DNA of 64,000 bases. Source: Streptantibioticus cattleyicolor NRRL 8057 = DSM 46488. GTDB taxonomy: Bacteria; Actinomycetota; Actinomycetes; Streptomycetales; Streptomycetaceae. The stretch lies in contig NC_017586.1 of the NCBI RefSeq assembly GCF_000240165.1, positions 1,054,001 through 1,118,000 of the forward strand. The letters are read 5' to 3'. A model generated the notes under the pieces. That model was not told where the DNA came from. It saw nothing but the letters and a program-made list of their open reading frames with translations, and ran no database searches. Positions 11,298 to 41,551 of the stretch are shown here, in pieces. The number at the start of each line of letters is the position of its first letter. The stretch's first letter is position 1. The translations under genes were made by a program, and so were the position numbers.

Positions 11298-13028
11298 TCA
11301 GCGTGACGCGCGGGCCGCCGCCAGGAGTTCCTCGGCGTGCGCCCGGGCGGTGTCGGAGTCCTCCAGGCCGGCGAGCATCCGGGACAGCTCCCGGACCCGT
11401 TCCTCACCGTCCAGCGCCCGTACGCCGCTGCGGGTGACCGAGCCGTCGCTGGTCTTCTCCACCAGCAGCTGGCGGTCGGCGAACGCGGCCACCTGCGGCA
11501 GGTGGGTGACCACCACGACCTGGGCGGACTTCGCCAGCCGGGCGAGCCGGCGGCCCACCTCGACCGCGGCCTTGCCGCCCACCCCCGCGTCCACCTCGTC
11601 GAACAGGTAGGTCGGCACCGGATCGGAACCGGCGAAGACCACCTCCACCGCCAGCATCACCCGGGAGAGCTCACCGCCCGAGGCGCCCTTGGCGATCGGC
11701 CGGGGGGCGGCCCCGGGGTGCGGGGCCAGGTGGAGTTCGACCTCGTCCGCGCCGCTCGGACCGTAGGCCACGGTGCGCCCGTTCACCTCGATGCCCTCGG
11801 GGTCGTCGCTCTGCCCGATCGCCACGGTGATGCGGGCGTGCGGCATGGCCAGTTCGCCCAGTTCCGCGGTGACGGCGGCGGCGAACCGGTCGGCCGCCGC
11901 GGTACGCGCGTCGGTCACCGCCTGGGCCAGTTCGCCCAGTTCGGCGCGGAGCGCGTCGCGTTCGGCGGTCAGCGCCTCGATGCGCTCGTCGTCGCCCTCC
12001 AGTTCGGCGAGGCGGCCGGCGTTCTGCTCGGCCCAGGCCAGCACCGCGTCGATGTCGGCGCCGTACTTGCGGGTGAGCTGGGCGAGCACGGCACGCCGTT
12101 CCTCCACCGCGGCCAGCCGCAGCGGGTCGGCGTCCAGGTGGTCGGCGTAACCGGCGAGTTCACCGGCGACGTCGGTGAGCAGGATGCCGATCTCGCCGAG
12201 CCGGTCGGCCAGCGAGGCGAGCGCCGGGTCGTGCGCCCGTACCGCCTCCAGCGCGCGGGTGGCCCCGGCGACCAGGGTGGTCGCGTCCACCCCCTCCGGG
12301 TCCTCGGGGTCACCGGCGAGCGCGGTGTGCGCGGCGGCGGCGGCGGAGGCGAGCGCCTCGGCGTGGCCCAACCGCTCGGCCTCGGCGGCCAGTTCCACGT
12401 CCTCCCCCGGACGCGGCTCGGCGGCGCCGATCTCGCCCAGCCCGAACCGCAGCAGATCGGCCTCCTGGGCGCGCTCACGGGCCCGGGTGGTCAGCTCCTC
12501 CAGCTCCGCGGAGACCTCCCGCAGCCGCTGGTAGGCGGAGGCGTACTTGGCCAGCGGCACGGCGACCGCGTCCCCGGCGTACCGGTCGAGCGCCTTGCGC
12601 TGCCGGGCCGGGCGCAGCAGCCCCTGCTGGTCGGTCTGGCCGTGCACGGCGACCAGGTCGTCGGCGAGCTCCCCGAGCAGCGAGACGGGGACGGAACGGC
12701 CGCCGAGGTGGGCCCGGGAGCGCCCCTCGGCGGAGATGGTGCGGCTGACCAGCAGGGCGCCGTCGTCCAGCTCGGCACCGGCCTCCTCGGCCCGTACCGC
12801 CGCCGGGGAGTCGGCGCCGACCACGATCCGTCCCTCGACCACCGCCGACCTGGCCCCGTTGCGGACCAGCGTCGCGTCCGCCCGTCCGCCGAGCAGCAGC
12901 CCGAGGCTCGTGACGACCATGGTCTTGCCCGCGCCGGTCTCACCGGTCACCGCCGTGAACCCCGGGGACAGCTCGACCACTGCGTCCTCGATGACGCCCA
13001 AGGACCGTATCCGCATCTCCTCCAGCAC
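11298..13028 (-). CDS. recN: DNA repair protein RecN
   Basis: SMC-like ATPase of double-strand-break repair, 576 residues. The Walker A GETGAGKT is at residues 29-36. Long alpha-helical coiled coils occupy the middle. The signature GASGGELSRVMLAVE and the Walker B LFDEVDAGVGGKAAVEVG lie in the C-terminal lobe, followed by VVVVTHLPQVAAFADRQL. I choose GTG 13028 (VLEEMRIRSLGVIED), the N-terminus I recall for Streptomyces RecN. The ATG at 13016 directly follows GGAGGAG with no spacing. It lies 77 bp downstream of the NAD kinase, in the leftward tlyA-nadK-recN order common in actinobacteria. Confidence 0.95.
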   Translation of the reverse strand: MLEEMRIRSLGVIEDAVVELSPGFTAVTGETGAGKTMVVTSLGLLLGGRADATLVRNGARSAVVEGRIVVGADSPAAVRAEEAGAELDDGALLVSRTISAEGRSRAHLGGRSVPVSLLGELADDLVAVHGQTDQQGLLRPARQRKALDRYAGDAVAVPLAKYASAYQRLREVSAELEELTTRARERAQEADLLRFGLGEIGAAEPRPGEDVELAAEAERLGHAEALASAAAAAHTALAGDPEDPEGVDATTLVAGATRALEAVRAHDPALASLADRLGEIGILLTDVAGELAGYADHLDADPLRLAAVEERRAVLAQLTRKYGADIDAVLAWAEQNAGRLAELEGDDERIEALTAERDALRAELGELAQAVTDARTAAADRFAAAVTAELGELAMPHARITVAIGQSDDPEGIEVNGRTVAYGPSGADEVELHLAPHPGAAPRPIAKGASGGELSRVMLAVEVVFAGSDPVPTYLFDEVDAGVGGKAAVEVGRRLARLAKSAQVVVVTHLPQVAAFADRQLLVEKTSDGSVTRSGVRALDGEERVRELSRMLAGLEDSDTARAHAEELLAAARASR

Positions 13029-13105
13029 GCCCCCGACGATAGCGGGTGCGGTGCGCCCGGGTTGCGCTGCGCCTTGGGTCACCGCCCGGACGGCGTCCCG
13101 GCGCG

Positions 13106-14017
13106 CTACCGGGGCGCGCCGCGCCAGCCGGCGACCGGCAGCGCGAACTTGGCCACCAGCCGGTCGGTGAACGAGGCGTGGTGCAGCCGGGCCAGCCGCA
13201 CGGGGACCGCCCCGCGGCGCACCTCCACCCGGGCCCCGGCGGGCAACGGCACCGTACGGCGCCCGTCGCACCACAGCACACCGTGCGGCGTCTTGGGCTG
13301 CACCTCGACGGCGAGCACCGAGTTCGGGGAGGTCACCAGCGGCTTGGCGAAGAGCGCGTGGGCGCTGATCGGCACCATCAGCAGCGCCTCGACCTCCGGC
13401 CACACCACCGGGCCGCCCGCCGAGAAGGCGTACGCGGTGGAGCCGGTGGGGGTCGCGCAGACCACCCCGTCGCCGCCGAAGCCGGAGACCGGACGGCCGT
13501 CCACCTCGGTGACCACCTCCAGCATCCGCTCCCGGGCGGCCTTCTCCACCGACGCCTCGTTGAGCGCCCAGTCGGTGTGCACCACCCGTCCGTCCTCGCG
13601 GACCAGGACGTCGAGGGTCATCCGTTCCTCGACCTCGTAGGCGCGGGTGACCACCCGGTCGACCACCTTGTCCAGGTCGTCCCGCTCGGCCTCGGCGAGG
13701 AAGCCGACCCGCCCGAGGTTGACGCCGAGCATCGGCACCCCGGAGGCCCGGGCGAACTCGGCGCCGCGCAGCAGCGTCCCGTCGCCGCCGAGCACCACCA
13801 GCAGCTCGCAGCCGTCCACCACGTCCGGCCGCGGCTGGACCACGTCCACCGAGGCCGGCAACGTCAGGTCGACCGCCTCCTCGGCGAGGATGCGCACCCC
13901 TATCCCGCAGCGCAGCAGCCCCTGGACGACCCGTTCGGCGCTGCGCACCGCCGCCGCCCGGCCGGTGTGCGTCAGCAGGAAGACGGTGCGCTCACCGGCC
14001 GCCCCGCCCCTCGTCAC
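13106..14017 (-). CDS. nadK: NAD kinase
   Basis: ATP- or polyphosphate-dependent NAD kinase making NADP. Key motifs are LLVVLGGDGTLLRGAEFA (GGDGT), NLGRVGFLAE, and FGGDGVVCATPTGSTAYAFSAGGPVV. GTG 14017 gives VTRGGAAGERTVFLLTHTGR (303 residues), close to the length I expect in streptomycetes. A TTG at 14056 is a serious alternative: it overlaps the tlyA stop codon (TTGA) and has GGAGG 7 nt upstream, giving 316 residues and translational coupling. The gene lies between tlyA and recN on the same strand. Confidence 0.93.
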   Translation of the reverse strand: MTRGGAAGERTVFLLTHTGRAAAVRSAERVVQGLLRCGIGVRILAEEAVDLTLPASVDVVQPRPDVVDGCELLVVLGGDGTLLRGAEFARASGVPMLGVNLGRVGFLAEAERDDLDKVVDRVVTRAYEVEERMTLDVLVREDGRVVHTDWALNEASVEKAARERMLEVVTEVDGRPVSGFGGDGVVCATPTGSTAYAFSAGGPVVWPEVEALLMVPISAHALFAKPLVTSPNSVLAVEVQPKTPHGVLWCDGRRTVPLPAGARVEVRRGAVPVRLARLHHASFTDRLVAKFALPVAGWRGAPR

Positions 14018-14052
14018 ATCCCGCGTCCCACCCGACGTACCACTCGATCCGC

Positions 14053-14859
14053 TCAACGGGGCCCCTCCGCTACGGCACGGTCGACATCCTCCGGGTCGAG
14101 TTCCGGCGCCCCGGCGCGCAGCCACAGAAAGTACTCGACGTTGCCCGACGGTCCGGGCAGCGGGCTGGCGGTCACCCCGAGGGCGCCCAGCCCCAGCTCC
14201 GCGGCCTGCGCCGCGACGTGGCGCACCGCCTCGGCACGCAACTGCGCGCTGCGCACCACGCCGCCGCTGCCCAGCCGTTCCTTGCCCACCTCGAACTGCG
14301 GCTTGACCATCAGCACCAGATCGGCGTCGGGGGCCGCGCACCGCACCAGCGCCGGCAGCACCAGCCCGAGCGAGATGAACGACAGGTCGCCCACCACCAG
14401 GTCGACCGGCTCGCCGCCGATCTGCTCCAAGGTCAGCTCGCGGACGTTGGTGCGGTCCTTGACCACCACCCGTTCGTCCTTCTGCAACGACCAGGCGAGC
14501 TGGCCGTAGCCGACGTCCACGGCCACCACGCGGGCGGCCCCGGCCCGCAGCAGCACGTCGGTGAAGCCGCCGGTGGAGGCGCCGGCGTCCAGGCAGAGCC
14601 GGCCCTGCACGGTCAGCCCCAGCGGCTCGAAGGCGGCGAGCGCGCCCGCCAGCTTGTGACCGCCGCGGGAGACGTAGTCCGGGTCGGTGTCGTCGGCCGC
14701 GACCACCAGCGCGGCGCTGGTCTCCACCTGGGTGGCGGCCTTGCCGGCCACGCCACCGCCTACGGTCACCCGGCCGGCCGCGATCAGTTGTGCGGCGTGC
14801 TCGCGGGAGCGGGCGAGTCCACGGCGGACCAGCTCCGCGTCGAGCCGTCGTCGTGCCAC
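14053..14859 (-). CDS. tlyA: TlyA-family rRNA (cytidine-2'-O)-methyltransferase
   Basis: S4 RNA-binding domain (residues ~3-60, RRRLDAELVRRGLARSREHA) fused to a Rossmann methyltransferase with the SAM motif LCLDAGASTGGFTDVLL. The downstream segments VDVGYGQLAWSL and DLSFISL are typical of TlyA/FtsJ-like enzymes that 2'-O-methylate 16S and 23S rRNA. Length is 268 residues. The start is GTG 14859 with GAGGAG 11 nt upstream. It begins 15 nt after the repeat-rich hypothetical gene ends and runs into nadK, so the four genes are probably co-transcribed. Confidence 0.93.
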   Translation of the reverse strand: MARRRLDAELVRRGLARSREHAAQLIAAGRVTVGGGVAGKAATQVETSAALVVAADDTDPDYVSRGGHKLAGALAAFEPLGLTVQGRLCLDAGASTGGFTDVLLRAGAARVVAVDVGYGQLAWSLQKDERVVVKDRTNVRELTLEQIGGEPVDLVVGDLSFISLGLVLPALVRCAAPDADLVLMVKPQFEVGKERLGSGGVVRSAQLRAEAVRHVAAQAAELGLGALGVTASPLPGPSGNVEYFLWLRAGAPELDPEDVDRAVAEGPR

Positions 14860-14874: not shown

Positions 14875-15522
14875 TCATCGTTCGTGCGGGGTCCGGGCCG
14901 GTACGGGTGGCCCGGGTCGTCGGTCGAGGGCCGTCAGGCGTTCCCGCAGCCCCTGGTGGACATCCTCGTACACCGCCAGGTGCGCCTCGGTGGGCAGGGC
15001 GTCCGTCTCGGCCAGCCGGTCCAGCAACGCGTCCACCGCCGCCTCCCCGGTACGCGGCAGCGGTCCCGCGCTCCGCGCGGCCCTCTCCGGCCCACCAGGT
15101 GGCGCGGCTGCGCCGGGGACGGATCCGGCAGCCGGCGCGGACTCGTCCCGGAGCGCGGCCTCGGACGCCGCCGCCTTGACCGAGCCGACGGCCGCCACGG
15201 GCTCCCCCCGCGGCACGCCCGCACCGGGCCCGGCGGCAGACGGCACCGCAGGCCGAACTTCCCCACCGGCGGAACCGGCGACCGGCACGGACTCGTCCGG
15301 AAGCGCGGCCTCGGACGCCACCACCCCGGGCGGACCCCCGCCGACAGCCGAACCGACGGCCGCCACCGACTCCCCCCGCGGCACGCCCGCGCCGGGCCCG
15401 GCGGCAGACACCACCGCAGACCGAACGTCCCCACCGGCGGAACCGGCAACCGGCACGGACTCGTCCTGGAGCGCGGCGCCGGACGCCGTCGGCGCAACCG
15501 CTCCGGGCACCGGGTCACGCAC
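14875..15522 (-). CDS. hypothetical protein with internal tandem repeats, upstream of tlyA
   Basis: Unrecognised protein of 215 residues. The N-terminal 145 or so residues are low-complexity Ala/Gly/Pro/Val/Ser, made of about 2.3 copies of a 56-residue unit containing DESVPVAGSAGG and AGPGAGVPRGE. The C-terminal ~45 residues look conserved and helical (AVDALLDRLAETDALPTEAH). The start is GTG 15522 with GGGAGG 8 nt upstream. Its first 8 nt overlap the end of the Lys/Ala-tailed gene, indicating translational coupling. Only the C-terminal helix pair looks like a functional module; the repeats may be a spacer. Confidence 0.7.
   Translation of the reverse strand: MRDPVPGAVAPTASGAALQDESVPVAGSAGGDVRSAVVSAAGPGAGVPRGESVAAVGSAVGGGPPGVVASEAALPDESVPVAGSAGGEVRPAVPSAAGPGAGVPRGEPVAAVGSVKAAASEAALRDESAPAAGSVPGAAAPPGGPERAARSAGPLPRTGEAAVDALLDRLAETDALPTEAHLAVYEDVHQGLRERLTALDRRPGPPVPARTPHER
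15145..15500. repeat. in-frame tandem repeat, period 168 bp
   Basis: Segments beginning CCGACGGC at 15185 and 15353 repeat with a 168-bp (56-codon) period, with scattered substitutions. A partial third copy (GCGCGGCCTCGGACGCC-like) lies around 15150-15175. The period is a multiple of three, so expansion or contraction keeps the frame open. Confidence 0.75.
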
Positions 15523-16354
15523 CGGTGTCGCCTCCCGTCTTCTTACGGGGGGCGCGCTGTGCCTTCTTGGGCGGCGGGGCCGCGGTCAGGGGGGTGACCT
15601 TGCTGGTGGTGTGGCGGACGGTGGTCTTCTTGGCGGTGGTCTTCTTGGCCGTCGCCGGGGTCTTCTCGGCGGGAGCCGGGGTCGCGGCGGTGCCGGTGGC
15701 GGCCTTCTTCGCCGCCTTCTTCGCGACGGCGGCCTTCTTCGCCGGGGCGGCCTTCTTCTGCGGTGCCGTGGACTTCCGGGCGGCGGCGCGGGCCGCGGGG
15801 GCGAGGCCGCCCGGAGTGGCGGCGGTGTGCGTCTGCCGGGCGGCGGCGACCTTCTTGGCCGCGGTGGCCTTCTTGGCGGGGGCCGGTTTCCGTTCGGCCG
15901 GAGGCTCGGCCGCCGGCGGCGGCGTCTCGCGCGGCGCGGCGGGTTCCTCCCGCACCGGGACGCGTTCGCGCCGGGCGGCGGGCTCCTCGGCCGGCCGGGG
16001 CGGCTCGGGCGGCGGCTCGTCCTCCAGGCTGCGTACCCGGCGTTCCAGCGCCTCCAGCACCACCCCGACCTTGGTCACCTCGTCGGCGAGCCGGGAGACC
16101 CGGCCCATCGTCTTGTCGACCTCCTCGCGGATCAGGCCGACCAGCAGATCGCGGTTGGCCCGTCCGGAGGCGATCAGCTCGTCGGCGAGCACCTGCACCT
16201 CGGGCGGGATCCGCTCGCCGATCCTGCGCTGGACCTCGTGCACGGCGGGCCCGGCCTGGTCCGCCAGTTCCCGGGCGACCGTCGCGGCCCGCCGCCGGGT
16301 GGCCTCGGTCAGCCCGCCCGCGATCTGCAGACAGGTGCGCAACGCGTCACGCAA
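15515..16354 (-). CDS. coiled-coil protein with histone H1-like Lys/Ala/Pro tail
   Basis: 279-residue protein with two parts. The N-terminal ~110 residues are helical (LRTCLQIAGGLTEATRR ... ADEVTKVGVVLEALERRVRSLE), with a terminal coiled coil. The C-terminal ~165 residues are dominated by KK, AAAKK, TTAKK and PAKKA runs, like histone H1 or the tail of PhaF. Likely binds nucleic acid through the tail; function otherwise unknown. TTG 16354 is preferred: GAGGAG stands 8 nt upstream, while GTG 16363 directly abuts it. Its end overlaps the start of the repeat-rich gene by 8 nt. It is divergent from the SCP2 gene. Confidence 0.75.
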   Translation of the reverse strand: MRDALRTCLQIAGGLTEATRRRAATVARELADQAGPAVHEVQRRIGERIPPEVQVLADELIASGRANRDLLVGLIREEVDKTMGRVSRLADEVTKVGVVLEALERRVRSLEDEPPPEPPRPAEEPAARRERVPVREEPAAPRETPPPAAEPPAERKPAPAKKATAAKKVAAARQTHTAATPGGLAPAARAAARKSTAPQKKAAPAKKAAVAKKAAKKAATGTAATPAPAEKTPATAKKTTAKKTTVRHTTSKVTPLTAAPPPKKAQRAPRKKTGGDTGA

Positions 16355-16587
16355 TGCCCTCACTCCTCGCCTAGCCGTATCCGCCGTGTTACCGACGCTA
16401 CCGCGTGCCCCCACCACGCGTTCGTACTCCGCCCCTGGCCGTCTGCCGGTGCCCACCGGGGCCCGGTGTACGGTCGAGCGGTGTCCGCGCGAGCGGTACG
16501 CGTCCCAGCGCTACGTACCGCGCGGGCCGACCGGGTACGCACCGGCGCGAGCGACGTACGCACCACGGAACAGGAGCAGCCCCACCG

Positions 16588-16971: not shown

Positions 16972-17997
16972 TCACCACCCCAGCCGGGCCAGCGCCTTCT
17001 CCCCGTCCAGCCGCCCGGGCCCATCCCCGGCGGCCGTCCAGGCGGCGGCACACAGCGCCCTGAGCCCGTCGCAGGGGTCGCCGTCGCCCTCGACGCGCAG
17101 CGCGCCGCCGTCCGCGCCGGCCGACCAGCCGCCGCACCGGAAGCCGTCGCCGTGCGGGGTGACCGGCGGGTGCCCGGTGAGCAGTCCGCGCAGGTCGGCG
17201 GCGAGGTAGGTGGGCCGGTGCCGCGGCTCGGCGGCCAGCAGGTGCGCCGGGGTGGTGACCCCGGTCAGCACCAGCAGCGAGTCGACCTCGCCCACGTGGG
17301 CGCCCTCGATGTCGGTGTCGAGGCGGTCGCCGACCACCAGCGGACGCCGGGCGCCGGTGCGCAGGATGGTCTCACGGTGCATCGGCGGCTGCGGCTTGCC
17401 CGCCACCTGCGGATCGCCGCCGCCGGCCGCGATCCGGACCACCTCGACGGCCGCGCCGTTGCCCGGGGCGATGCCGCGCGGCCCGGGGATCGTCAGGTCG
17501 GTGTTGGAGGCGTACCAGGGCACCCCGCGGGCGACCGCGTACCCCGCCTCGGCCAGCCGCTCCCACGGCATCTTCGGGCCGCCGTAGCCCTGCACCACCG
17601 CCACCGGGTCGTCGTCCGCCGAGTCCACCGGCTCCAGGCCCTGCTCGCGCAGCGCGACCCGCAGCCCCTCACCGCCGATCGCCAGCACCAGCGAGCCGGG
17701 CGCCACCTGCTCCGCGATGAGCCGGGCCACCGCCTGCGCCGAGGTGACCACGTCCGACGCGTCGGCCGGCACGCCCAGCTCGGTCAGGTGCGCGGCGACC
17801 GCGTCCGGGGTGCGCAGCGCGTTGTTGGTGACGTACGCCAGCCGCATCCCCCCCTCCCGGGCCGCCCCGAGCGAGGACACGGCGTGCTCGATCGCCCGGC
17901 CGCCCGCGTACACCACCCCGTCCAGGTCGAGCAACGCCGTGTCGTACGCCTCGTGCAGCGGTTCCTCGCTGCCGCCCGGCCGGGTCCGCGCGTTCAT
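16972..17997 (-). CDS. HAD-IIA family (NagD-like) phosphatase
   Basis: HAD hydrolase of subfamily IIA, 341 residues. Motif I is LLDLDGVVYAGG, motif II VTNN, and motif IV VVGDRLDTDIEGAHVGEVDSLLVLTGVTT. The cap domain between them has DDDPVAVVQGYG and ASNTDLTIPGPRGIAPGNGA. A ~75-residue C-terminal extension (after LLTGHPP) is common in Streptomyces homologues. The start is ATG 17997 with GGGAG 10 nt upstream. Substrates of this group include nucleotides, p-nitrophenyl phosphate and glycerol 2-phosphate; the physiological one cannot be told. It is divergent from the DUF1015 gene. Confidence 0.88.
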   Translation of the reverse strand: MNARTRPGGSEEPLHEAYDTALLDLDGVVYAGGRAIEHAVSSLGAAREGGMRLAYVTNNALRTPDAVAAHLTELGVPADASDVVTSAQAVARLIAEQVAPGSLVLAIGGEGLRVALREQGLEPVDSADDDPVAVVQGYGGPKMPWERLAEAGYAVARGVPWYASNTDLTIPGPRGIAPGNGAAVEVVRIAAGGGDPQVAGKPQPPMHRETILRTGARRPLVVGDRLDTDIEGAHVGEVDSLLVLTGVTTPAHLLAAEPRHRPTYLAADLRGLLTGHPPVTPHGDGFRCGGWSAGADGGALRVEGDGDPCDGLRALCAAAWTAAGDGPGRLDGEKALARLGW

Positions 17998-18146: not shown

Positions 18147-19457
18147 ATGAGCACTCCAGGAGCCTCCCCCTGGCCATCCCAAGGGGACCCCCGGCAAGCG
18201 CGCGGCCTGCGGCTCGCGCCCTTCCGTGGACTGCGCTACGTCCCCGACCGGGTCGGCAGCCTGTCCGCGGTCACCTCGCCACCGTACGACGTCGTGGTCC
18301 GCCCCGACGGACTGGTACGGCTGGAGGACGCCGATCCGCACAACATCGTGCGGCTGATCCTCCCGCAGGACGGCGACCCGGCGGCCAGCCACGCCCGGGC
18401 CGCCCGCACCCTGCGCGACTGGCGGGAACGGGGCGTCCTCGCCCCCGACCCGGAGCCCGCGCTCTACGTGTACGAGCAGCGCGACGCGGCCGGCCTGGTG
18501 CAGCGCGGACTGATCGGCGCGCTGCGGCTGACCACCGCGGACGAGGGCGTGGTCCTCCCCCACGAGGACGTGATGCCGGCGCCGGTGGCCGACCGGGCCG
18601 GCCTGATGCGCGCCACCCGGGCCAACCTGGAACCGCTGCTGCTCGCCTACCGGGGAGACAGCCGGGGCGCCGCCGCCCGCACCGTGGAGGCGGCCGGCGA
18701 CCAACCGCCGCTGCTCGCCACGACCACCGAGGACGGCACCCGCCACCGGCTGTGGGCGGTCACCGACCCGGCGCGGATCGCCGCCGTCGGCGCCGACCTG
18801 GCCACGCGCCAGGCGCTGATCGCCGACGGCCACCACCGCTGGGCCACCTACCTGCTGCTCCGCGCCGAGCAGCCCGCGCCCGGCCCGTGGGACCAGGGCC
18901 TGGTGCTGCTCGTGGACACCGCCCGCTACCCGCTGCGGGTCCGCGCCATCCACCGGGTGCTGCGCCGCCTCCCGGTGGCCGACGCGCTCGCCGCCCTGGG
19001 GGACGCCTGCCGGGTACGGCGGCTCGACGTGCCGCTGCCGGACGCGCTGGCCACGCTGGCCGAGGCGGCATCCGGCCCCGGCAACGCCTACCTGCTCGCC
19101 GGGGACGGCGCCTTCCACCTGGTCACCGAGGTCGCCGAGCGCCTCGTCGACGCGTGCGTGCGCCACGACCGCCCGGAACCGTGGCGCCGGCTCGACGCCA
19201 CGGTCCTCCACCACGTGCTCATCGACCACCTGTGGCGGGTTCCGGACGCCCCCGAGCACGTCGGCTACGTCCACGACGCCCCGGCCGCCGTGGGGCAGGC
19301 CGAACGCCTGGGCGGCACCGCCGTGTTGATGCACCCGGTGCCGGAGGCGACGGTGCTCGAACTGGCCCGGCAGGGCGTGATGATGCCGCACAAGTCGACG
19401 TCGTTCGGCCCGAAGCCGGCGTCGGGGCTGGTGCTGCGCAGCCTGGATCTGGAGTGA
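18147..19457 (+). CDS. DUF1015 domain-containing protein
   Basis: Conserved protein of unknown function, 436 residues. Hallmarks are APFRGLRYVPDRVGSLSAVTSPPYDVV near the N-terminus, HNIVRLILP, and the strongly conserved ADGHHRWATYLLLRAEQ. The C-terminus has AVLMHPVPEATVLELARQGVMMPHKSTSFGPKPASGLVLRSLD, also typical of the family. Such proteins are sometimes called SpoOJ/ParA/ParB/repB-like; I would not rely on that. The start is ATG 18147; no strong ribosome site is visible. A 13-bp terminator hairpin follows at 19472-19502. Confidence 0.88.
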   Translation: MSTPGASPWPSQGDPRQARGLRLAPFRGLRYVPDRVGSLSAVTSPPYDVVVRPDGLVRLEDADPHNIVRLILPQDGDPAASHARAARTLRDWRERGVLAPDPEPALYVYEQRDAAGLVQRGLIGALRLTTADEGVVLPHEDVMPAPVADRAGLMRATRANLEPLLLAYRGDSRGAAARTVEAAGDQPPLLATTTEDGTRHRLWAVTDPARIAAVGADLATRQALIADGHHRWATYLLLRAEQPAPGPWDQGLVLLVDTARYPLRVRAIHRVLRRLPVADALAALGDACRVRRLDVPLPDALATLAEAASGPGNAYLLAGDGAFHLVTEVAERLVDACVRHDRPEPWRRLDATVLHHVLIDHLWRVPDAPEHVGYVHDAPAAVGQAERLGGTAVLMHPVPEATVLELARQGVMMPHKSTSFGPKPASGLVLRSLDLE

Positions 19458-19511: not shown

Positions 19512-21125
19512 TCAGGCGTTGTCGGGACGGTTGTCGTCCTCTTCGGAGCGCTTGTCCGCGGGACGGTCGTCCTCGGGCCGTTCGTCTTCCGGCTTGGCGT
19601 CGTCGGCGGGGGCCGGCTCCTTGAACGGGTTGTCGAGGAACGCGGAGGGGTCGATCGGCTGCGCGGGGGCGGCCTCGGTGCCGGACTCCTCGGAGCCGGA
19701 CTCCTCGGAGCCGGACTCCTCGGGGCGGGCGTCCTCGGCGAGGTCTTCCGCGTCCTCGGCGTCCTCCGCGTCCTCGGCCTCCGGGTCGAGGGCGTCCACG
19801 AAGTGCACGCCCTCCAGCTCGGCCAGCCGGTCGGAGGCGTCGGTGGCGCCGTTCTGGTCGGCCTCCAGCGCCTTGGCGAACCAGTCCCGCGCCTCGTCCT
19901 CGCGGCCCACCGCGACCAGCGCGTCGGCGTACGCGTAACGCAGCCGCGCGGTCCACGGGTGGACGGCGCTGGACGCCAGCTCCGGGCTCTGCAGGGTGAC
20001 CACGGCCGCGTCGGCCTGACCCATGTCCCGCCGCGCGCCGGCCGCCACGAGCCGCATCTCCACCTGCCCGGCCCGGTCCAGCTTCTGCACCTCGGGCTCG
20101 CCGGCCATGGCCAGCGCCCGCTCCGGACGGCCCAGCCCGCGCTCGCAGTCGGCCATCACCGGCCACAACTCCACCGAACCGGTCATCCGCCGCGCCGCGC
20201 GGAACTCCGCCAGCGCCTCCGCGTACCGCTCGGTGGAGTACGCCGCGAAGCCCACCGCCTCACGCACCGCCGCCACCCGCGAAGCGAGCCGGAAGGCCAC
20301 CTTGGCGTACGCGTACGCCTGCTCGGCCTCGGTGTCCAGCAGCCGCGCCACCATCACCAGGTTGCGGGCCACGTCCTCGGCGAGCGTCTTCGGCAGCGAC
20401 TGCAACTCCTGCCGGACGCTCTTGTCCAGCTCCTGGCCGGTCACGTCCTCCGGGATCGGCAGCCGCTTGACCGGCTCGCGCTGCTCCTCACGCGCATCCT
20501 CCCGGCCACCCCGCCCCCGACCACGGTCGCGGTCCCGGTCGCGGCTCTCGAACCGCCCCCGCCCCGGCCCGGCCGGACGACGGTCCCCCCGGCCCCGGTC
20601 GTCACGGCGGTCGTCACGCGGGCGGTCTTCGCGCGGACGGTCGTAACGGGGACGCTCATCCCGGCGGTCATCGCGCCGGAAGCCACCCCGTTCGTCGTCC
20701 CGACGCGGACGGTCGTAACGCGGCCGGTCGTCCCGGCGGAAGCCGCCCCGGTCGTCCCGACGGTCGTCACGCGGCCGGTCATCACGGGGACGGTCGTGGC
20801 GCGGACGGTCGTCACGCCGGTCGTCCCGACGGAAGCCACCACGGTCATCACGCCGGTCATCGCGGGGACGGTCGTAACGGGGACGCTCGTCGCGGCGGAA
20901 ACCACCACGGTCATCCCGACGGTCATCACGCGGGCGCTCGTCGCGGCGGTCTTCGCGGGGACGGTCGTAATGGGGACGCTCGTCACGCCGGTCGTCCCGG
21001 CGGAAGCCGCCCCGGTCGTCGTTGCGACGGGGGCCACCGGTACGGAAATCGCGGCGCCCGCCGACGCCGGCGTTCCGGTCCCTGCGCTCGGGCCTATCCG
21101 AGCGGCCCTCGGACGAGTTGGACAT
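19512..21125 (-). CDS. TPR-type protein with Arg/Asp/Gly-rich repeat region and acidic tail
   Basis: 537 residues in three parts. Residues ~1-215 are a low-complexity, charge-patterned region of repeated DRPRDDRRDD and RGGFRRD units. Residues ~220-440 form a helical TPR-like core (LPIPEDVTGQELDKSVRQEL ... AYAYADALVAVGREDEARDW). The last ~95 residues are Asp/Glu/Ser-rich (AEDAEDAED, GSEESGSEESG). The start is ATG 21125 with AAGGAG 8 nt upstream. It lies just downstream of the rRNA operon terminator on the same strand. Homologues are common in Streptomyces as tetratricopeptide proteins; the RGG-like region suggests RNA contact, which is inference. In vivo role unknown. Confidence 0.82.
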   Translation of the reverse strand: MSNSSEGRSDRPERRDRNAGVGGRRDFRTGGPRRNDDRGGFRRDDRRDERPHYDRPREDRRDERPRDDRRDDRGGFRRDERPRYDRPRDDRRDDRGGFRRDDRRDDRPRHDRPRDDRPRDDRRDDRGGFRRDDRPRYDRPRRDDERGGFRRDDRRDERPRYDRPREDRPRDDRRDDRGRGDRRPAGPGRGRFESRDRDRDRGRGRGGREDAREEQREPVKRLPIPEDVTGQELDKSVRQELQSLPKTLAEDVARNLVMVARLLDTEAEQAYAYAKVAFRLASRVAAVREAVGFAAYSTERYAEALAEFRAARRMTGSVELWPVMADCERGLGRPERALAMAGEPEVQKLDRAGQVEMRLVAAGARRDMGQADAAVVTLQSPELASSAVHPWTARLRYAYADALVAVGREDEARDWFAKALEADQNGATDASDRLAELEGVHFVDALDPEAEDAEDAEDAEDLAEDARPEESGSEESGSEESGTEAAPAQPIDPSAFLDNPFKEPAPADDAKPEDERPEDDRPADKRSEEDDNRPDNA

Positions 21126-21215
21126 CGACGTGACTCCTTGGATCGTGCTGCTGTAGTGCCAGTCTCCCGTATTCGTCGGGAGAACGCGCATCGGCGGGGG
21201 GTGGGCAAACGAAAA

Positions 21216-21255
21216 GGACCCTCGGTCCCGGCGCTCAGGCCGGGACCGAGGGTCC
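21216..21255 (-). terminator. rRNA operon terminator
   Basis: A perfect 17-bp stem: 21216-21232 (starting GGACCCTCGG) pairs with 21239-21255, with loop GCTCAG. Read on the minus strand it is followed by TTTTCGTTT, a true U-rich tail, and lies 10 nt past the end of 5S. Among the hairpins here this is the most canonical terminator. Confidence 0.92.
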
Positions 21256-21264
21256 ATAAAGATA

Positions 21265-21383
21265 GTTCGGCGGCGTCCTACTCTCCCACGAGGTCCCCCT
21301 CGCAGTACCATCGGCGCTGAAAGGCTTAGCTTCCGGGTTCGGAATGTGACCGGGCGTTTCCCTAACGCTATAACCACCGAAAC
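21265..21383 (-). rRNA. rrf: 5S ribosomal RNA
   Basis: About 119 nt. The minus strand begins GTTTCGGTGGTTATAGCG and contains the conserved CCGAACCCGGAAGCTAAGCC core, ending GGACGCCGCCGAAC. The ends pair with one another. It lies ~160 nt after the 23S 3' end. Ends are accurate to a few bases. Confidence 0.95.
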
Positions 21384-21542: not shown

Positions 21543-26464
<4,922 letters not shown>

Positions 26465-26934
26465 ATGCTTCCGGGCTATCCCGGTGACACAGTCACGAGA
26501 GCGGCACGGGCCGGAGGAATAATCCGGTCCGTGCACAGCGTCCTCGCTGTGTTTTCTTCAAAGGAACCTCATCCATCCAGGCCGTCAGGCCCGGCGGACG
26601 GGGTATCAACATATCTGGCGTTGACTTTTGGCACGCTGTTGAGTTCTCAAGGAACGGAAGCTTCCTTCGTTGCCGTTTCCGGCCCCTCCGGGCTTTCCCT
26701 TCGTTGTCCCCAGCTTATCAGATCCTTTCGGACCCGATTCCCGCTGGCGGGGTTTTGCCTTTTTGGCCTTTCGGCCCTTCCAGCGTGTCCACCACGTTAC
26801 ACCCGAATTTCTCGACAAGGAAATTCGACCCTGTCGGGAGCGAGTTCAGTAGTGGTTATGCCGAGTGACGAGGTGCCTGTGGACGTGGTCCACCGCATGG
26901 CCCTCAGCCCCCAGCGGCTTAGCCACGTTAGGCG
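26465..26934 (-). promoter_or_regulatory. rRNA operon promoter and leader region
   Basis: About 470 gene-free bases upstream of 16S, lower in GC than the rest. A block at 26601-26650 (minus strand, TTGAGAACTCAACAG then GTGCCAAAAGTC) resembles the leader element I know from Streptomyces rrn operons, thought to matter for processing or antitermination. A TGTAAC hexamer at 26796-26801 could be a -10 box, but the TTGTCG at 26813-26818 is only 11 bp away, so the pair is not canonical. Streptomyces rrn operons usually have several tandem promoters; I cannot place them individually. Confidence 0.6.
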
Positions 26935-27010: not shown

Positions 27011-28291
27011 TCAGTCGCGGACGACCTCGACGGCGGCCAGGTTGCGCTTGCCGCGGCGCAGCACCAGCCACTTGCCGTGCAGCAGGTCGGCCTCGCCCGG
27101 GATCTCGTCCTCGCCGGCGACCTTCGCGTTGTTCACGTAGGCACCGCCCTCCTTGACCGTGCGGCGCCCGGCGGACTTGCTCGGTACCAGGCCGGTCTCG
27201 GCGAGCAGGTCGACGACCGGGGCGAGGGCCGGCACCTTGGCGTAGGGCAGCTCGGCGAGGGCCGCGGCCAGCGTCCGCTCGTCCAGGGCGGCCAGGTCTC
27301 CCTGGCCGAAGAGCGCCTGCGAGGCGGCGATCACCGCGGCGGTCTGGTCGGCGCCGTGCACCAGGGTGGTCAGCTCCTCGGCGAGCGCCCGCTGGGCGGC
27401 CCGGGCCTGCGGGCGCTCGGCGGTGGCCCGCTCCAGCTCCTCGATCTCCTCGCGGTCGCGGAAGCTGAAGGTGCGCAGGTAGCGGGTGACGTCGCGGTCG
27501 TCGGTGTTGAGCCAGAACTGGTAGAAGGCGTAGGGCGTGGTCAGCTCGGGGTCGAGCCAGACCGCGCCGCCCTCGGTCTTGCCGAACTTGGTGCCGTCCG
27601 CCTTGGTCAGCAGGTTCTGGGTGAGGGCGTGCGCCGGGCCGTGCGGCTGGTTGGATCGCATCCGGCGGATCAGGTCGAGGCCGGCGGTGATGTTGCCCCA
27701 CTGGTCGCTGCCGCCGATCTGGAGCGTGCAGCCGTACCGCTGGTACAGCTCCACGTAGTCCAGCGCCTGGAGGATCACGTAGCTGAACTCTGTGTAGCTC
27801 ATGCCCTCGCCGTCGAGGCGGGTCTTGACCGTCTCGCGGGAGAGCATCGAGTTGACGCTGAAGTGCTTGCCGAGGTCGCGCAGGAAGGAGAGCGCGGAGA
27901 TGCCGGCCGTCCACTCGTAGTTGTTGGCCATGATCGCCTGGCCGGGACCCGGGGTGTCGAAGTCCAGGAAGGCGGAGAGCTGGCCGCGCAGCCTGCCGAC
28001 CCACTCCTCGACGGTGGCGGCGGCGTTGAGCTGGCGCTCGGCGCTGGGCTTGGGGTCGCCGATCAGTCCGGTGGCGCCGCCGACCAGGGCGATCGGCCGG
28101 TGCCCGGCGAGCTGGAAGCGGCGCAGCGCGATGATCTGCGTGAGGTGGCCGACGTGCAGGCTGGCCGCGGTGGGGTCGAAGCCGCAATACAGCGTGACGG
28201 GGCCGTCCGCGAGCGCCTTGCGCAGGGCTTCTTCGTCGGTGGTCTGGGCGAGGACTCCCCGCCACCGCAGCTCGTCGACGATGTCCGTCAC
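27011..28291 (-). CDS. tyrS: tyrosyl-tRNA synthetase
   Basis: Class I aminoacyl-tRNA synthetase charging tRNA-Tyr, 426 residues, near the expected length. The HIGH-type motif is LHVGHLTQI, the binding loop [16 protein letters not shown], and the KMSKS-type loop [10 protein letters not shown]-terminal S4 RNA-binding domain ([20 protein letters not shown] ... [16 protein letters not shown]) closes the protein. The start is GTG 28291 ([21 protein letters not shown]); GAGGGAG lies 12 nt upstream. No T-box is apparent in the 112-nt gap to the neighbouring glycosylase gene. It lies upstream of the rRNA operon on the same strand. Confidence 0.96.
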
Positions 28292-28403
28292 GGTGTCTCG
28301 TTTCTCCCTCTTCGGGTACGCCCTCCGCCGCGCCGATCGCGGTGCCGGGCGTACCTCGTCACTACAGACAGCTTGTCCGAGGGTACGCGGTCCGGGCCGG
28401 CGG

Positions 28404-29048
28404 TTACCGCCTGCGGCGGGGCGCGTGGGCACGGTACGGGCTGACGGTGGGGTCGCCGTCGATCCAGAAGCGCCACGGGTGGGCCGCGCCCTCGCCGCCG
28501 ACCCCGGTGCGCGGGCCGTTGCGTACCGCCCCGGGGGACGCCGGGGTTCCGGTGAGCACCCGGAAGGGCGAGTCGGCGGGGGCGGCGGGGCAGACGTCGG
28601 CGCCGTCGAGCGCGCGGTCGATGCCGAGCGCGGTGGCCAGCCGGGCCGGACCCTGGGCGAGGTCGGCGGGGCGGCGGGAGCTGGGGCGGCGCTTGGCGGC
28701 CAGGTCGGCGCCGGCCACGATCTCCCCGGCCCGCAGCAGCACGCCGCCGGCGGTGCCCTCCGGGCAGCACACCAGGTTCATGCAGTGCCACATCCCGTAG
28801 GTGAAGTACACGTAGGCGTGACCGGGCGGGCCGAACATGACGGCGTTGCGCGCGGTGCGGCCTCGGTAGGCGTGCGAGCCGGGGTCCGCGGTGCCGGCGT
28901 ACGCCTCGACCTCGGTGAGCCGTACCTCGACGGGACCGTCGGGGGTGTCGCGGACGAGGACGCGGCCGAGCAGGTCGGGTGCCACGTCGAGCACCGGGCG
29001 GTCGAAGAAGGCACGGGGCAGCGGGGTGCGGTCGGTAGCCGAGGTCAT
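28404..29048 (-). CDS. DNA-3-methyladenine glycosylase (AAG/MPG family)
   Basis: Monofunctional base-excision glycosylase removing alkylated purines, 214 residues. The MPG fold signatures are LARPAFF-like [61 protein letters not shown], and [10 protein letters not shown]. The probable catalytic Glu is in VEAY. The tail [12 protein letters not shown] to [17 protein letters not shown] matches Streptomyces homologues. ATG 29048 gives the natural N-terminus; the frame extends 21 codons upstream without a good ribosome site. It is divergent from the PEBP gene and transcribed toward tyrS. Confidence 0.92.
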
Positions 29049-41333: not shown

Positions 41334-41551
41334 AAGGTTGTCCCCCGGTTTACCCCCATGCCGGGAAGTCCGGGATGGCGAACGTCGGGAGCACTATTCC
41401 AGGCTCCCGTCCGTTACGGAAAGTCGCCCTCTGGCGGGGGCTTGGGGCCGAAACGCCCTCGGACGGTGGTAGGGAGGAAGTAGGCGGCGGTATGCCGGAT
41501 GATCCCGGCATACGGCGGTGTACGGCTTTCCTCCGCGGAACAGGGGCGACC

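Follow-up and report, generated by a model that had tools for sequence, protein, structure and literature searches.

The closest known counterparts of the protein reported here include mycobacterial ones. According to the accessible part of PMC3072309, the gene order in M. tuberculosis is Rv1691-Rv1692-Rv1693-tlyA-ppnK-recN, and in rapidly growing mycobacteria rrnB lies downstream of tyrS (PMC6089878, consulted in excerpt). The available portion of PMC7092591 labels MSMEG_3754 of M. smegmatis a TPR-repeat-containing protein and includes it, with high confidence, among the proteins that came down with cross-linked RNA polymerase β. The tagged protein was itself assayed for DNA, and none was recovered; the authors suggest there that it may simply be RNA-associated, or that DNA is bound in amounts too small to see. 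MSMEG_3754 is also one row in the ClpC1 interactome (PMC10433963, data list). The family to which these proteins belong, a TPR family linked to ribosomal RNA operons, is little-studied. The literature searched, in which few subscription papers were covered, contained no paper assigning a function to the gene, no RNA-binding measurement for any family member, and no description of a phylum-wide junction between 5S rRNA and a TPR gene.

Charged low-complexity segments have been described in other settings. As far as the accessible text of each paper goes, arginine enrichment in bacteria marks the low-complexity regions of proteins that bind or process RNA (PMC6821194), and acidic disordered segments are reported to suppress the non-specific RNA binding of adjoining domains (PMC8348266). 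In eukaryotes, arginine-rich mixed-charge domains (R-MCDs) phase-separate and so gather in nuclear speckles; extra basic residues promote the entry of mixed-charge domains into organelles (PMC9324279, in part). In the same sections of that paper, alternating (DR)12 peptides showed no phase separation, alone or with NPM1, and lost affinity for their neighbours. (D4R4)3 peptides also failed to phase-separate, while a peptide with blocky charge formed droplets that absorbed RNA. The (DR)12 and (D4R4)3 peptides had 24 residues and contained no Gly, Phe or Tyr.

The window analysed here is a stretch of 64,000 nucleotides from Streptantibioticus cattleyicolor. Directly behind its rRNA operon, on the same strand, it carries a gene for a streptomycete member of an actinobacterial TPR family with an arginine-rich, disordered N-terminal tail. 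Gene order and the published papers make it a putative member of the Rv1691/MSMEG_3754 family: it shares the TPR label and, as judged by family models, lies between tyrS(-rrn) and HAD-tlyA-nadK-recN. The reading we tentatively favour, at somewhat under an even chance, is that of an RNA-facing TPR adaptor working near transcription or rRNA. Should the protein turn out to act on rRNA or on RNA polymerase, it would count as a lineage-wide factor in transcription or ribosome biogenesis, one that soil producers share with mycobacteria, as far as gene order shows. Otherwise it offers a clear case of rRNA linkage as pure inheritance.

The coding sequence (19512-21125, minus strand) specifies 537 amino acids and a stop; in the list of open reading frames the ATG is at 21125 and the stop ends at 19512. 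A likely ribosome-binding site, AAGGAG (21134-21139), lies 8 nt before the ATG. Over the first 41-45 codons, mismatches to five relatives fall at codon positions 1/2/3 as 1/4/11, 3/4/13, 1/5/13, 4/7/22 and 2/6/20. This concentration at third positions is the pattern of a translated frame, and together with the conserved core it rules out a spurious low-complexity open reading frame. Third-position GC is 0.76 in the tail and 0.97 in the core of the window gene, as against 0.70 and 0.94 in the family loci, with the tail lower in 61 of 61 measured. These 61 tails are those, among 80 family loci, in which the start pattern found a tail of sufficient length. The tail codons (20466-21125) are rich in CGT and GAT. 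The coordinates, strand, tail lengths and 90-bp distance of the initial annotation were all correct on re-check.

The gene belongs to a larger conserved block, which is found whole or in part in the longer loci, also outside the class, in the order tyrS-16S-23S-5S-TPR-(DUF1015)-HAD-tlyA-nadK-recN. In the window, tyrS (27011-28432, minus; TIGR00234 above cut-off) forms the upstream end, followed on the minus strand by the 16S (24940-26465), 23S (21543-24665) and 5S (21265-21381) rRNA calls. A convergent DUF1015 gene (18147-19457, plus; PF06245) sits between the TPR gene and the gene for a HAD-IIA hydrolase with a GNAT-like C-terminal domain (16972-17997, minus; PF13344, PF13242 and PF18407 above cut-off). 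Beyond these lie, also on the minus strand, a TlyA-family rRNA methyltransferase (14053-14859; TIGR00478 above cut-off, equivalog NF049952 below), NAD kinase (13106-14341 as listed; NF002892 above cut-off) and RecN (11298-13403 as listed; TIGR00634 above cut-off). The last two are matched only from residues 116 and 126 of their frames, and their true starts are probably further in. Within the same block, a 313-aa open reading frame (15515-16456, minus) has a C-terminal half rich in lysine, alanine and proline, histone H1-like; it has only a sub-threshold Pfam match and no NCBIfam match.

The presence of a TlyA-family rRNA methyltransferase and tyrS in the block speaks for the RNA-facing reading. 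The block is also old, and this favours the main rival, in which the protein is a TPR adaptor of the usual peptide-binding kind, without any RNA role, its tail a solubility aid or spacer, and its place behind 5S a frozen ancestral gene order. We regard this rival as a serious contender, at roughly one chance in three. The adjacency can be inherited gene order, since the terminator and promoter-like motif make the rRNA operon and the TPR gene separate units and tyrS, HAD, tlyA, nadK and recN often stay in place too. Upstream, tyrS was found in 12 of 20 long loci (matches below 60 bits ignored), a figure not comparable with that for the TPR-5S junction because these loci were chosen knowing that 5S was adjacent. 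Downstream, the gap between the TPR and DUF1015 genes widens to about 5.6 kb in one locus (L081) and 2.8 kb in another (L078), so that the genes downstream drift apart where the junction with rRNA is retained. DUF1015 lies downstream in only 8 of 40 loci from the rest of the phylum, as opposed to an rRNA junction kept in most of the checkable distant genomes; this counts against the rival, although short flanks and lower sensitivity make it no fair contest.

On its own, the core sequence finds 57 of 61 relatives, and loci were found with it in Streptomyces, Streptantibioticus, Actinacidiphila, Kitasatospora and one Streptomycetaceae MAG. A profile built from 18 cores (threshold E 0.001) finds matches in 243 of 256 class genomes sampled, a breadth that favours an RNA-facing role, and, with the class counted in, in 174 of the 396 phylum genomes. 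The 13 class genomes with no match to this profile count against that role; 6 of them fall in one family of small genomes (f99), in which 21 of 27 have a match. In the own genome, the one examined for this, the next-best match scored 12.5 bits, compared with 58-140 bits for the distant loci used, so it is unlikely that the distant matches are generic TPR proteins. Some genomes depart from the single gene. One (G253) has two copies (L168 and L169), identical at 401 of 408 residues and each behind 5S and 23S, and three others of its genus (G505, G585, G627) also have two matches each. In L182 (genome G304) the TPR frame extends by some 350 residues to take in a HAD hydrolase domain, making a TPR-HAD fusion, and G310 and G406, of the same genus, have open frames of similar length.

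The placement behind 5S, whose conservation the initial annotation had proposed to check, recurs far beyond the family. Adjacency was scored where a 5S on the same strand lay upstream and no more than 300 bp from the open frame, with one row per genome. Removal of five loci with cores identical to others (L057, L058, L059, L060, L127) reduced 230 rows to 225, and 51 of these end at a contig edge before 5S would be visible and are left out of the checkable totals. The loci taken from the class and phylum match lists represent about one per genus, with large contigs preferred, and were picked after many matches had been seen near contig ends. Within the own family, 82 of 87 checkable genomes have the 5S: 28/30 in a first set (51 rows, 21 contig edges) and 54/57 in a second (75 rows, 18 contig edges; 58/61 before duplicate removal). 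The corresponding values are 43/51 for the rest of the class (59 rows, 8 contig edges) and 26/36 for the rest of the phylum (40 rows, 4 contig edges). One genome (G247) is scored as a contig edge through L163, though its other locus, L176, shows 5S. To our knowledge, it is unusual for a protein gene to be kept directly behind 5S in most checkable genomes of a phylum-wide sample. This recurrence hints, from gene order, at a role near ribosomal RNA.

The misses are of several kinds. Among the five in the own family, L030 has a run of N in the tail, L111 has 23S directly upstream with no 5S found, and L034, L073 and L078 have 5S 0.5-1.1 kb before the open frame, probably as a result of frame breaks in the tail. 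Seven loci outside it (L173, L182, L185, L205, L217, L220, L236) have 5S 0.3-2.5 kb before the open frame and were scored as misses. In a further eleven the TPR gene has no upstream 5S (L165, L175, L181, L186, L207, L208, L210, L211, L232, L235, L240), and lineages that keep the gene in this way count against an RNA-facing role. Rfam models applied to 20 loci, 19 of them lacking a blast 5S match, showed an LSU but no 5S in L111, an SSU ahead of the gene in L207 and L210, and, in the one locus with a blast match (L220), 5S about 2.5 kb away; no rRNA was found in the remaining 16. In the distant loci L208 and L211, tyrS precedes the TPR gene with no rRNA found between them. L207 has its TPR gene directly behind 16S, with no 23S or 5S found, and the 16S match there covers 1960 bases of sequence for a model of 1533 positions, which suggests an insertion in the 16S gene.

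The junction itself does not look like that of a simple operon. In the window, an intrinsic terminator with a predicted 17-bp stem (21216-21255, minus) follows 5S, and 90 bases separate the stem from the ATG of the TPR gene, as first described. A strong hairpin followed by a T-run lies behind 5S in 87 of 93 distinct 5S-to-gene intervals, most of them from the own family. Behind the terminator, an element resembling TGcgNGAGAAT occurs in 49 of the 93, compared with 2.2% in base shuffles, this motif having been chosen after looking at the data; 25 placements are 42-43 bp before the ATG. The other 44 intervals, the window's included, do not match the motif as searched. A sigma-70 consensus scan of the window interval gave no site either, and by comparison with the relatives the promoter-like -10 there would be the variant GAGACT (21161-21166, minus). 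With a terminator, and a promoter-like motif in about half of the intervals, read-through from the rRNA operon need not drive the gene, and it was set aside as the sole means of expression. These elements suggest that the TPR gene is transcribed from a promoter of its own that follows the rRNA terminator; if it is, the neighbours probably do not form a simple operon. Separate expression of this kind suits an adaptor with no RNA role and an inherited position.

The core (residues 221-445; 19791-20465) is predicted to be helical throughout and to form a solenoid (AlphaFold2 mean pLDDT 94.6). The best structural match is OGT (Z 16.5, 3.6 Å over 198 residues), followed by TTC0263 (Z 16.4, 2.8 Å over 179 residues), with many near ties; the 50 matches listed range from Z 16.5 to 14.2 over 168-214 residues at 9-20% identity. 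The predicted structure thus has the helix-pair solenoid of the TPR superfamily, and the TPR core named in the initial annotation stands on its fold, though the protein stays below the Pfam gathering cut-offs (TPR_12, 23.3 bits against 30.1; TPR_19, 23.1 against 25). Its repeats are divergent. A profile search against sequences of solved structures gave nothing better than E 0.098. OGT, TTC0263, LGN and Rap share the predicted fold of the core, but at only 9-20% identity, and the core has a family signature of its own, VREAxGxxAY...ADCxRG. R288, E289, Y296, D326, R329, E356, D367, R394 and R433 are among the positions kept in at least 82% of 39 class and 38 other phylum cores. Several of the top matches are peptide complexes by title, such as LGN and Rap/NprR, and they favour a plain peptide-binding adaptor. 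The fold, as predicted, points to no function.

The N-terminal tail (residues 1-220; 20466-21125) is 37% R, 23% D, 11% G and 8% P, with 82 Arg, 51 Asp and 25 Gly; its only Lys is residue 220. There are 14 copies of RDDR, whereas shuffling the same residues 2000 times gave 1.5 on average and never more than 7, and the repeat rich in Arg, Asp and Gly that was first remarked on is clearly present. In the full-length AlphaFold2 prediction the pLDDT block means are 32-45 across the tail, which, like the C-terminal tail, reads as disordered. RGG/RG boxes are defined by closely spaced di- or tri-RGG. The tail shares the Arg and Gly content of such RNA-binding regions, but has no closely spaced RGG cluster: its six RGG are 17-56 residues apart, Asp outnumbers Gly, and the main unit is R-D. 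The RGG label of the initial annotation was therefore loose. The tail has instead the composition of an R-MCD, low in complexity and built mainly of alternating R and D. This likeness to the R-MCDs of nuclear speckle proteins (PMC9324279, in part) is one of composition alone; unlike them, the tail is attached to a bacterial TPR protein, and no homology is claimed.

The DNA repeats in the rows that cover the N-terminal tail match at only 61-81%, and its 14 RDDR are written by 9 different DNA encodings. It thus does not look like recent tandem duplication, and slippage was rejected on the same encodings and on the lower third-position GC of the tails. Tail paralogues were ruled out in the own genome, where no second match was found at E 1e-5.

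Charge patterning differs in frequency between the family and more distant relatives. R and D are mixed more evenly in the window tail than in shuffles (z -3.7), and the tail is slightly positive overall. All 61 family tails are evenly mixed at z below -2, as are 18 of the 34 tails from the class and 3 of the 19 others, the latter two groups restricted to tails of at least 60 aa. Every one of these 114 tails (61, 34 and 19) carries a net positive charge, and the median R/(R+K) is 0.99, 0.98 and 0.89 in the same order. Among tails of at least 15 aa, with cut tails and rows having more than 250 aa after the core excluded, an Arg content of 15% or more is reached by 35 of the 36 from the class and 28 of the 31 from elsewhere in the phylum (median 21%, compared with 11-12% in the core). 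Outside the own family the tail is mostly shorter and less regular, with Arg still high and Lys rare. As even mixing fades from family to class to phylum, the regular R/D repeat seems a derived trait, built on an older tail that was already rich in Arg.

These properties bear on both leading readings. The recurrence of positive tails with Arg over Lys across classes favours an RNA-facing protein and counts against the adaptor with no RNA role. Evenly mixed charge predicts an expanded, weakly self-interacting chain, as would suit a spacer. The inferred tail lengths also vary from 1 to 599 residues across loci, which fits a spacer as well, although these lengths are approximate because the start codons of the relatives are themselves inferred. 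The initial annotation had named orthologues that lack the repeat but keep core and synteny as a case against its reading. Three loci (L214, L219, L221) come partway to this: their tails of 15-23 residues still stand behind 5S, so the synteny does not hinge on the long repeat, yet these tails remain 20-30% Arg.

The C-terminal tail (residues 446-537 and stop; 19512-19790) comprises 92 residues with a net charge of -28, in agreement with the acidic end described at first. Its pLDDT block means are 42-63 past residue 450 and peak around a short motif, PSAFLDNPFKEP (residues 493-504; 19614-19649), which is common to some close relatives; the block mean in the motif region is 63, with a predicted 4-residue helix. 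PFx[EA]P was found in the C-terminal tail of only 6 of 80 family loci. Longer N-terminal tails go with more acidic C-terminal tails in the class (Spearman -0.71, n 36), but outside the class the coefficient is -0.10 (n 34) and for both sets together -0.44 (n 70), all uncorrected for relatedness. A coupling between the two tails is no more than hinted at by these values. The suppression of non-specific RNA binding by acidic segments reported in the accessible text of PMC8348266 would suit this end of the protein.

The MSMEG_3754 data, the tail properties and the acidic C-terminal tail together lead us to favour the RNA-facing adaptor, with the plain peptide-binding adaptor close behind. In the favoured mechanism, the gene would be expressed from its own promoter behind the rRNA terminator. 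The N-terminal tail may bind nascent RNA or ribosomal particles weakly and at many points, while the TPR groove would hold a protein partner. In long-tailed lineages, the interspersed aspartates and the acidic C-terminal tail could damp non-specific binding. The site of action would likely be near transcription or early ribosome assembly. Against this mechanism, alternating R and D neutralise charge, and peptides of this type lost affinity for their neighbours (PMC9324279, available sections). The behaviour of (DR)12 in those sections suggests a weak, tuned interactor in place of a strong RNA binder or droplet former. The slight positive charge of the window tail and its Gly, Phe and Tyr, by analogy, leave room for stronger binding or droplets.

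A bolder form of the same idea makes the protein a cis-encoded organiser of the rRNA operon, which would bind nascent pre-rRNA and RNA polymerase and recruit assembly factors. It would then be a bacterial counterpart of a nucleolar scaffold, its link to rrn formed early in the phylum. We consider this improbable.

A condensate former, whose tail would cause phase separation at rRNA genes or in RNA-degradation bodies, is also unlikely. The initial annotation had seen a likeness to eukaryotic condensate-forming sequences, and this holds for composition: Arg and Asp are the residues of nuclear-speckle R-MCDs, basic residues aid organelle entry, and the tail is slightly positive (PMC9324279, in part). 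The low AlphaFold2 confidence along the tail is in keeping with this reading. The patterning does not follow, for charges are mixed more evenly than chance in every family tail measured. In addition, neither (DR)12 nor (D4R4)3 phase-separated in the accessible sections of PMC9324279, though those peptides were short and had no Gly, Phe or Tyr, and tails of 15-23 residues behind 5S leave little to phase-separate.

Equally improbable is an adaptor or substrate of Clp protease or of the neighbouring HAD phosphatase, with a role in protein turnover or metabolism: MSMEG_3754 is listed in the ClpC1 interactome (PMC10433963, data list) and the TPR frame runs into a HAD domain in L182, but such lists are broad, the fusion was read in a single genome, and DUF1015 separates the TPR and HAD genes in the window.

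Elsewhere in the window, ARAGORN places a tRNA-Pro (cgg) at 41425-41521, which at 97 bases is longer than usual.
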